Shown piece by piece: positions 37,188-38,615 of a DNA stretch of 41,649 nucleotides (positions are counted from its first letter, which is position 1; every line of letters begins with the position of its first letter). The stretch comes from an uncultured Chryseobacterium sp. GTDB taxonomy: Bacteria > Bacteroidota > Bacteroidia > Flavobacteriales > Weeksellaceae. The translations under genes were made by a program, and so were the position numbers. The notes under the pieces are model-generated. The model ran no database searches. It was given only the letters and a program-made list of their open reading frames with translations, and was not told where the DNA came from. The stretch is taken from assembly GCA_913777465.1 (NCBI GenBank), contig CAJYRQ010000001.1, positions 1 to 41,649 on the forward strand, given 5' to 3'.

Positions 37188-37226
37188 CTATCGGATTGCC
37201 GTTTAGTTATTTGCATTAAAATCGAC

Positions 37227-37307
37227 ATAAGCAGATGTACCGATAATTATTATCTATAAGTATATCTGCTTATATTTTTTATTTATAAGTAATTATGCTT
37301 ATATTTG
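37227..37307 (+). promoter_or_regulatory. Double palindrome and -7 box upstream of SatD-family gene
   Basis: Two 20-bp near-palindromes, TATAAGTATATCTGCTTATA (37255-37274) and TATAAGTAATTATGCTTATA (37284-37303), share half-sites TATAAGYA/TRCTTATA and start 29 bases apart. A third half-site, ATAAGCAGAT, at 37227-37236 is the exact complement of 37264-37273. The second palindrome overlaps the -7 box TATATTTG (37300-37307). This is an operator array; the encoded protein's own C-terminal helix-turn-helix is the likely ligand (inference). Confidence 0.7.
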
Positions 37308-37311
37308 CAGA

Positions 37312-37917
37312 ATGATAGCGGTCATTACCGGAGATATTATAAATTCACAACACGCGGAAACAGAGGTTTGGATCACCAGACTTAAAAATCTTCTCGACAA
37401 ATGGGGAAGCGCTCCCGAGACATGGGAAATCTACAGGGGCGACGAATTCCAGTTCAAGTGTAATATCGACGACGTGTTCTGGCGTTTCTTAGCTATAAAA
37501 TCATTAATCAGGAGTCAGGAAAATTTAGATGTGCGCATGGCCATCGGGATCGGTGAAGAAAATTTTTCTTCCGGAAAGATTACCGAATCCAACGGAACGG
37601 CATACGTGCATTCCGGAAGGCTGCTGAACGATCTGAAAAATGACGGTCACACCGTTGCCATCAAAACATCCAGTGTTTCCGTAGACCGGGACCTGAATAT
37701 TCTGCTGAAATGGTCTTCTAAGGATTTTGACAGCTGGACGATGGCCACCGCAGAGATCATTCACGAAATGATCATGAATAAAGACCTCACGCAGGAAGAT
37801 CTTGCGAAGAAGTTTGCGATTTCCCAATCTTCCGTAAGCCAGCGGCTGAAACGGGCAAACTATGAACTGATCGCCGAAACCAACCAGTATTTCAGAAAAA
37901 AAATCTCCGAACTCTAA
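37312..37917 (+). CDS. SatD-family protein with C-terminal helix-turn-helix
   Basis: A 201-residue protein resembling the SatD family (start MIAVITGDIINS). Residues 41-50 contain GDEFQ (43-47), and RMAIGIGEE lies at 75-83; together these recall the strand-loop and following strand of nucleotidyl cyclase/GGDEF folds, although the classic GG is not complete. The C-terminal part (about 159-187, LTQEDLAKKFAISQSSVSQRL) is a clear helix-turn-helix. The ATG is five bases after the -7 box, so the message may be almost leaderless. DUF3307 follows after two bases. Biochemical function is not known. Confidence 0.8.
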   Translation: MIAVITGDIINSQHAETEVWITRLKNLLDKWGSAPETWEIYRGDEFQFKCNIDDVFWRFLAIKSLIRSQENLDVRMAIGIGEENFSSGKITESNGTAYVHSGRLLNDLKNDGHTVAIKTSSVSVDRDLNILLKWSSKDFDSWTMATAEIIHEMIMNKDLTQEDLAKKFAISQSSVSQRLKRANYELIAETNQYFRKKISEL

Positions 37918-37919
37918 GC

Positions 37920-38615
37920 ATGATTTTTATCCAGCTCATATTCGCACATTTATTGGGAGATTTTATTCTTCAGCCGGATTCATGGGTTGCAGAGAAGGAA
38001 AGCAAAAAAATGAAGAGCGGCTATCTGTATCTTCATGTGCTGATTCATACGGTTTTAAGCTTTATCTTTTTATGGAATATTGAGCTTTGGTGGATCGCAC
38101 TGATTTTCGGAATTTCACATCTGATGATCGATGTCTCCAAATTGAGTTTTCAGACCATTCAAAATAAAAAAAGCTGGTTCTTCTTCGATCAGACGCTGCA
38201 TATTCTGGTGATTGCCGGAATTTCCTTTTATTCAAACGAATTCAATTTTGAATTTTTAAAAGATACAAACCTCTTAAAAGTAGTAGCGGGTGCCGTATTT
38301 CTGACGACGCCGGCTTCGGTTTTCATCAGGATACTGCTGTCTTCCTGGACCCCGGTTCCGGAAACCGCAGGAAATCTGCAGACCGAATCTTTATCGAGTG
38401 CCGGAAAATATATCGGGATCCTGGAGCGTTTAATGGTTTTCACCTTTATCATAGTGAATCATTGGGAAGGTGTCGGTTTTATGGTAGCAGCAAAATCCGT
38501 ATTCAGATTCAGCGACCTGGCGCAGGCTAAACAGAGAAAGCTAACGGAATATGTGCTGATCGGGACGCTGCTGAGTTTCGGGATGGCGGTTTTAACAGGA
38601 ATTTTAATTAAGTAA
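37920..38615 (+). CDS. DUF3307 family membrane protein
   Basis: A 231-residue polytopic inner-membrane protein of the DUF3307 family. The N-terminal signature FIQLIFAHLLGDFILQPDSWVAEK carries a conserved His and Asp inside a helix, followed by HVLIHTVLSF and GISHLMIDVSKL, which add further His/Asp residues in helices and suggest a metal or phospho-ligand site. No function is known. It is translated two bases after the SatD-like gene, so the two probably work together. Confidence 0.82.
   Translation: MIFIQLIFAHLLGDFILQPDSWVAEKESKKMKSGYLYLHVLIHTVLSFIFLWNIELWWIALIFGISHLMIDVSKLSFQTIQNKKSWFFFDQTLHILVIAGISFYSNEFNFEFLKDTNLLKVVAGAVFLTTPASVFIRILLSSWTPVPETAGNLQTESLSSAGKYIGILERLMVFTFIIVNHWEGVGFMVAAKSVFRFSDLAQAKQRKLTEYVLIGTLLSFGMAVLTGILIK

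Follow-up and report, generated by a model that had tools for sequence, protein, structure and literature searches.

The window analysed in this study, a 41,649-nucleotide stretch of a contig from an uncultured Chryseobacterium sp., carries a gene of the SatD family on its forward strand and, as the preliminary description had stated, a gene for a membrane protein beginning after a gap of only 2 bp (Table 1). The gene 3' of this membrane partner was read as purC. The first gene product scored 49.6 bits against the SatD family model PF16264 (curated cut-off 29), and all 64 members of the SatD alignment that we built matched the same model at E 1. Helix-turn-helix (HTH) models matched the C-terminal part of SatD, over a slightly wider extent (residues ~147–187) than the 159–187 first proposed. 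The partner scored 89.4 bits against DUF3307 (PF11750; cut-off 23), so its earlier naming was correct for residues 2–102 of 231, but the part that is constant throughout the family is the C-terminal domain that follows. The core of the earlier observation, a SatD/membrane protein pair under palindromes, was confirmed, and the system proved to be larger than described.

Table 1. Features of the satD locus in the window.
Feature	Position	Strand	Basis or remarks
O1, degenerate palindromic operator candidate	37226..37245	+	9/12 arm positions; 29 bp upstream of O2
O2, palindromic operator candidate TATAAG-N8-CTTATA	37255..37274	+	exact
O3, palindromic operator candidate TATAAG-N8-CTTATA	37284..37303	+	exact; 29 bp after O2; overlaps -7 box
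-7-type promoter box TATATTTG (TAnnTTTG), presumed	37300..37307	+	sequence; ends 4 bp before ATG
satD-family gene	37312..37917	+	201 aa; PF16264 E 5.1e-13
SatD residues 1–140, class III cyclase/GGDEF-like domain with invariant D8 and D44	37312..37731	+	profile, HHalign, model, Foldseek
SatD residues 147–187, helix-turn-helix	37750..37872	+	HTH models; alignment members
Codon of Q177, best specificity candidate of the SatD HTH	37840–37842	+	association scan
Membrane partner gene	37920..38615	+	231 aa
DUF3307 (PF11750) domain, partner residues 2–102, optional in family	37923..38225	+	Pfam
Constant C-terminal membrane domain, partner residues 158–230	38391..38609	+	alignment; G166, E169 and K192 invariant over 37 rows

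Both of the 20-bp palindromes previously reported ahead of satD (O2 and O3) were exact, and the second of them overlaps the element TATATTTG, which we take to be a -7-type promoter box following the Bacteroidota consensus TAnnTTTG. To compare this region within the genus we used 80 loci kept of 107 relatives found, 79 of the 80 being named Chryseobacterium. The -7 box falls within the 90% consensus of 79 genus loci and its placement, ending 4 bp before the ATG (window 37300–37312), is conserved in the genus; based on this short distance, the satD transcript may be leaderless. O2 and O3 had zero or one mismatch in all 80 loci. The “extra half-site” noted upstream of them does correspond to a conserved element, but a third palindrome of degenerate sequence (O1) describes it better. 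In the window O1 has three mismatches over its 12 arm positions, a level reached by 2 of 640 control offsets, and in 76 of the 80 genus loci it has at most two, a level reached by none of the 640. The mean arm column identity over the 79 same-register loci was 1.00 for O3, 1.00 for O2 and 0.98 for O1, compared with 0.68 further upstream. A lone exact site was not rare in this genome, with three occurrences of the forward pattern and two of a reversed-pattern control. The tandem pair, by contrast with its control, gave three forward matches against none, one of the three being away from satD, and at least one match was present in each of 59 genus genomes, the reversed control occurring in one of the 59, among the matches listed.

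The expectation that such palindromes would recur before orthologues was borne out beyond the genus. We examined the 170 bp ahead of satD in 67 cluster representatives from divergent Bacteroidota (the upstream of one further representative was too short) and in five plasmid copies; the comparative evidence comes mostly from Bacteroidota. Two to five copies of a single inverted repeat, with every spacing 27–29 bp, were found in 53 of these 72 upstreams; the same criterion was passed by 1 of 130 control upstreams, which were taken from other genes in the same loci and match composition, not gene type. The upstreams of 51 of the 72 beat all of 100 dinucleotide shuffles, and 113 of 117 intervals in the SatD set measured 27–29 bp. 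A clear array was absent in 19 upstreams, several of which had 28–29-bp pairs too degenerate to score while several had nothing visible. A spacing of 28.5 bp corresponds to ~2.7 turns of B-DNA, such that successive dimers would wind around the helix. The array provides a strong signature for locating the pair in genomes.

The letters of the arms varied by lineage. The half-sites seen were TATAAG, TATTAG, TATCGG, TATCGT, TATCTG, TATTCC, ATTTCA, GTTTCA, TTCAAC and TGAACT, and that on a Vibrio lentus plasmid was TTAGCC. Of the TATAAGYA half-site originally proposed, the 6-bp arm thus stands as the general core, but the terminal YA is not general. Nine genomes had two SatD matches, and in the six of these (from four genera) for which both arrays were resolved the half-sites of the co-resident copies differed in every case.

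The variation in the half-sites was compared with the SatD sequences in an association test of 30 long-type SatDs with TAT-starting half-sites, covering 188 residues, the statistics of which ignore relatedness. Residue 177, in the recognition helix of the HTH, ranked first of the 188 residues for base -7 (z 8.8). It was also among the leading residues for base -6 (186, 174, 45 and 177) and for base -5 (173 and 177). All nine rows with E177 had C at -7, compared with 3 of 21 others, and 9 of 10 rows with Q177, the residue present in the window, had AG at -6/-5, compared with 1 of 20 others. Contacts of Gln with A and of Glu with C are common in protein-DNA recognition. A tree-based test for residue 177 was underpowered: it gave one independent pair on supported branches, which agreed in most pairings and was never opposite for E177, and three to four pairs when unsupported branches were counted, the direction being given for the supported pair only. 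The association between SatD residue 177 and the base in the half-site makes the predicted DNA recognition of SatD directly testable.

The pairing of the two genes was highly conserved. SatD was identified in all 148 genus genomes searched with the window protein and was broken in one of these, a 75% complete genome in which satD lies in three frame pieces (G062:C1:37092–37692), perhaps as a consequence of a sequencing-error-rich assembly. At E 0.001, PF16264 matches were obtained in 41 of the 120 genomes sampled from the family, 48 of the 246 from the order and 79 of the 395 from the phylum, these samples overlapping. In 241 of 245 SatD loci, many of which overlap or repeat a genome, the partner follows satD in the same orientation. 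Two of the four misses (L163 and L172) are near contig ends, and the other two (L195 and L245) each represent a second SatD copy of the genome concerned. After clustering at 65% identity, 64 of 68 clusters had the partner downstream. The gap between the genes, measured in 63 cases, was -64 to +14 bp in 58 and 39–250 bp in the other five. A reciprocal search identified the C-terminal domain of the partner in 105 of 296 phylum genomes, and SatD was directly upstream of it in 30 of the 30 best loci, 12 of which are from genomes with no PF16264 match. Among 20 weaker loci, chosen from genomes where PF16264 had given none, 17 had SatD upstream, the misses being two contig ends and one locus (L355) with another gene in that position. 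Since SatD was found upstream of the partner in genomes that are negative for PF16264, the Pfam model misses some SatDs, and the two genes are almost obligate neighbours in the phylum. The proposal that the two genes occur together was therefore upheld from both directions.

The pair was also found outside the Bacteroidota. In a plasmid collection, tblastn identified SatD on five records (one each from Vibrio, Segatella and Sphingomonas, and two from Salinivibrio), with the partner adjacent in all five. The partner is carried by 24 records, including these five, and in six further partner records (E. coli, Enterobacter, P. fragi, Pseudoalteromonas, Fusobacterium and the haloarchaeal Halorientalis) a SatD-like frame was directly upstream in all six, giving adjacency in 11 of the 11 records examined, one of them haloarchaeal. 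The Fusobacterium and Pseudoalteromonas records are larger than 1.3 Mb. Arrays that beat all shuffles were found in 4 of the 11 copies (Vibrio lentus, Halorientalis, Enterobacter and Pseudoalteromonas). The E. coli copy and both Salinivibrio copies have a 28–29-bp pair that does not stand out from shuffled sequence, being matched by 30, 22 and 15 of 100 shuffles, respectively, and the upstream scan gave no array pair for the Segatella, Sphingomonas, Fusobacterium and P. fragi copies. The E. coli plasmid pEC34A (NC_019077.1) is only 3770 bp, and two of its five listed genes, in a gene table that is incomplete, are the SatD-partner pair; partner matches also occur on Klebsiella plasmids of the same 3770-bp size. 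The haloarchaeal plasmid (NZ_CP019068.1, Halorientalis) carries SatD together with a DUF3307 partner, and its palindromes, which are GC-rich, include two 29-bp intervals. On the P. fragi plasmid there are toxin-antitoxin-type genes within 3 kb of the pair. In Sphingomonas insulae (NZ_CP048421.1) the pair lies between TIR-domain and Pycsar-type genes, in a defence-island-like setting.

As to the N-terminal domain of SatD, we compared a SatD profile with the PDB. The profile matched the adenylyl cyclases Ma1120 (E 0.004), Rv1900c (E 0.028) and 3mr7 (E 0.045); the C-terminus gave many HTH matches, and at higher E some unrelated proteins also appeared. HHalign gave 90% for SatD against 29 Bacteroidota cyclase domains and 82% against 21 GGDEF domains, with reversed-profile controls at 0.4% or below and cyclases against GGDEF domains at 20%; each SatD subtype on its own gave much weaker values (1.5–40%). 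In the HHalign alignment, D8 and D44 fall on the two metal-binding Asp residues, and the SatD segment VRMAIGIG falls on the cyclase segment IRIGIHSG. Both Asp residues are invariant in 64 of 64 SatDs. In class III cyclases a Lys is the substrate residue, and an Asn and an Arg are the transition-state residues. We mapped these positions through the HHalign alignment and the shared glycine, and they are not kept as a set in the 64 SatDs: I stands in place of the Lys in 48, the Asn is replaced by V, T, H or I in 49, and R occurs at the Arg position in 20, with 18 more having R one column earlier.

An AlphaFold model of the domain from a shallow alignment was poor (pLDDT 61) and had the element order beta-alpha-beta-beta-alpha-beta. 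The six best Foldseek matches to it were all Ma1120 (probability 0.97–1.00, E 0.02–0.04, TM-scores ~0.3), none reaching E 0.001, and the cUMP synthase 7r65 was at rank 19. The class III cyclase model PF00211 did not match the window SatD at E 1 and was absent among the 25 of 113 families listed for the 64 SatD members, and neither PF00211 nor PF00990 had a match in this genome. Based on these data, the N-terminus of SatD resembles class III cyclases and GGDEF domains by profile and, weakly, by the fold of its model. The earlier suggestion that SatD senses something through this domain is plausible because the domain is cyclase-like by profile, HHalign and Foldseek. We consider it to be a predicted nucleotide-binding sensor whose cyclase chemistry has probably been lost, and as the two metal-binding Asp residues are kept it would probably bind Mg together with a nucleoside triphosphate or a similar nucleotide. 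A sensor-like domain and an HTH in one chain, with palindromic operator-like sites at the promoter of the same gene, is the architecture of a one-component autoregulator.

The constant part of the membrane partner, from an alignment of 37 representatives, is its last ~70 residues (158–230 in the window). This domain is hydrophobic and helical, and searches of Pfam and NCBIfam gave no model that covers it. DUF3307 was present in 22 of the 37 representatives, the others having a different N-terminal half or none. The conserved His and Asp residues pointed out in the preliminary description are present, mostly within the DUF3307 half (H10, D14, H39, H43, H67, D71, D90 and H94 are invariant in 47 genus rows). 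A low-confidence model of the partner (pLDDT 66) gave no convincing PDB match in Foldseek, no cyclic-nucleotide-binding domain was found in it, and PADLOC gave no match for the partner and, for SatD, weak matches confined to the HTH end. The match of an Acinetobacter phage record (MH517022.1, 42137–42415) to the partner is confined to the DUF3307 half (cf. phrog_2470), and phage DUF3307 proteins seem to be without the SatD-linked C-terminal domain.

Array-like sites were also observed away from satD. A second pair of TATAAG palindromes with 29-bp spacing overlaps the stop codon of a gene for a patatin-like phospholipase (~345 aa) in 20 of the 20 genus genomes fetched; in this genome it is at G000:C36, 93847–93895 (L363:2848–2896). 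The protein matches PF01734 (E 1.7e-26) and a PADLOC phospholipase-effector model (E 1.3e-59). There was no comparable site in the 170 bp before the patatin gene (best 3–5 mismatches), the genes downstream of it vary among genus genomes, and the inner positions of the patatin arrays are often not complementary. On sequence grounds, this array may represent a second SatD target. When 24 non-genus genomes were searched with two patterns, 18 matched, 17 of them only at satD. A TATCGG array away from satD (G538:C1:418038–418085; L405:2501–2548) lies within a prophage-like region, upstream of an ORF whose product we took to be an ASCH protein, and perhaps marks a mobile element using SatD control.

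The conservation of the pair, the phased arrays, the association with residue 177, the cyclase-like profile match and the kept metal residues are observed, whereas binding of the DNA by SatD itself, repression rather than activation, the nature of the ligand and a need to restrain the membrane protein as an effector are inferred. Our favored interpretation, to which we assign a probability of roughly two in three, is that SatD is a nucleotide-sensing autoregulator that restrains a co-transcribed membrane effector. The N-terminal domain would be a divergent nucleotidyl-cyclase fold acting as a nucleotide/Mg sensor, not a standard adenylyl cyclase. The HTH would bind as side-by-side dimers on phased palindromes 28–29 bp apart, of which there are three here, and the last of these, lying on the -7 box, would enable SatD to shut off its own promoter. 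The amount, and perhaps the activity, of the co-transcribed membrane protein would thereby be held in check by SatD, and a change in the bound nucleotide would lift the block. The autoregulated operon of the preliminary description is in this way supported as a self-regulating pair by the recurring palindromes and the near-constant pairing, with an operator that now comprises three phased sites. If correct, two “unknown” families become one testable system, comprising a cyclase-fold transcription factor, a readable operator code and an unnamed membrane effector domain.

A tentative alternative is that the pair is a toxin-antitoxin-like or abortive-defence module, in which SatD would repress, and perhaps also neutralise, a toxic membrane protein until a nucleotide signal, such as that of a phage infection, releases it. 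In the part of PMC11323703 used here, satD of S. pyogenes is reported as an essential accessory gene: 178 of 249 genomes carry it (~29% lack it), and the emm1, emm28 and emm49 strains under test all required it, with no mechanism offered there for its essentiality. To be essential where present and yet absent from so many genomes would be suited to an antitoxin-like role, since loss of a regulator that keeps a harmful partner in check would give just such a pattern, the streptococcal SatD being likened to ours by family name. The system could thus be a candidate explanation for the essentiality of satD in those S. pyogenes that carry it, even though the species can lack it. The occurrence of the pair in all 11 plasmid-collection regions, including the 3770-bp plasmid and those with toxin-antitoxin-type or TIR and Pycsar neighbours, and the difference in half-sites between co-resident copies in all six resolved genomes, are also in keeping with such a module. 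However, PADLOC and Foldseek gave nothing for the partner, and the weak PADLOC matches were to the HTH end of SatD. In addition, the presence of satD in all 148 Chryseobacterium genomes searched looks more like a housekeeping role than that of a defence or toxin module, and argues for domestication in this genus. In its fullest form, the proposal would be of an undescribed nucleotide-gated toxin-antitoxin or defence module of bacteria and haloarchaea, in which a retired cyclase-domain sensor on a phased array silences a membrane effector with an unmodelled domain, and fast specificity drift separates co-resident copies; we regard this as somewhat unlikely.

Activation by SatD, with the array upstream of the promoter recruiting RNA polymerase, would accord with two of the three sites being upstream of the -7 box and with the matches to HTH models similar to sigma-70 region 4, but O3 covers the -7 box, which favors blocking, and we consider activation improbable. 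More doubtful still is the idea that the HTH of SatD acts elsewhere and that the arrays serve a different regulator or form RNA or promoter structures. The array at the 3' end of the patatin gene and the SatD copies with no visible array would fit such a reading, but the changes in the half-site follow SatD residue 177, genomes with two SatDs carry two different arrays, the array matches were at satD only in 17 of the 18 matching non-genus genomes, and the patatin arrays often have non-complementary inner positions. A compact relative of Pycsar, in which SatD would be a working cyclase whose second-messenger product is received by the membrane protein, is very unlikely, for despite the cyclase-like domain with both metal Asp residues, the two-gene operon with a membrane protein and the Foldseek match to 7r65, the cyclase Lys and Asn are not kept and no cyclic-nucleotide-binding domain was found in the partner.

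Returning to SatD as an autoregulator of its membrane partner, our search found no prior description of such a self-regulating pair. The streptococcal sat cluster has a gene order that includes ffh and ylxM. Its SatD belongs to the same Pfam family as the window SatD (PF16264), and we set the two side by side by family and description. The earlier statement that SatD and DUF3307 proteins are uncharacterised is too broad for SatD, which has been reported in PMC11323703, as above, and in PMC12077213, the part of which used here describes a two- to threefold induction of the S. mutans satCDE-ffh-ylxM cluster by fructose. The portion of PMC10326533 available to us places a Fusobacterium protein in the SatD family and links it, by name, with acid resistance. 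Neither an operator array nor a relation to cyclases was seen in these portions of the literature on streptococcal sat and SatD.

Several other known systems have features in common with the pair. Pycsar, as presented in the part of PMC11224242 used here, likewise has a protein of the cyclase fold, and its effector can be a membrane protein; the pair is not a Pycsar system by its components, as the partner gave no cyclic-nucleotide-binding domain or PADLOC match and SatD carries an HTH. The mycobacterial CHD+LuxR proteins resemble SatD in joining a cyclase homology domain to a DNA-binding HTH in one protein, but their HTH is of the LuxR type, and no obligate membrane partner or phased array was seen for them in the section of PMC3466318 used here. 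To the class III cyclases (Ma1120, Rv1900c and PycC) and GGDEF domains the SatD N-terminus is linked by its profile match, by both metal Asp residues and, in its poor model, by a palm-type element order. Unlike class III cyclases, SatD does not have the active-site Lys and Asn, and it is fused to an HTH that is apparently read out on its own promoter. In type II toxin-antitoxin operons the antitoxin represses its own operon. The pair has the layout of these operons, with two genes, the regulator first and operator-like sites on its promoter, and it too has plasmid-borne copies, but SatD differs in having a cyclase-like domain, and its partner is a multi-helix membrane protein that is a candidate toxin.
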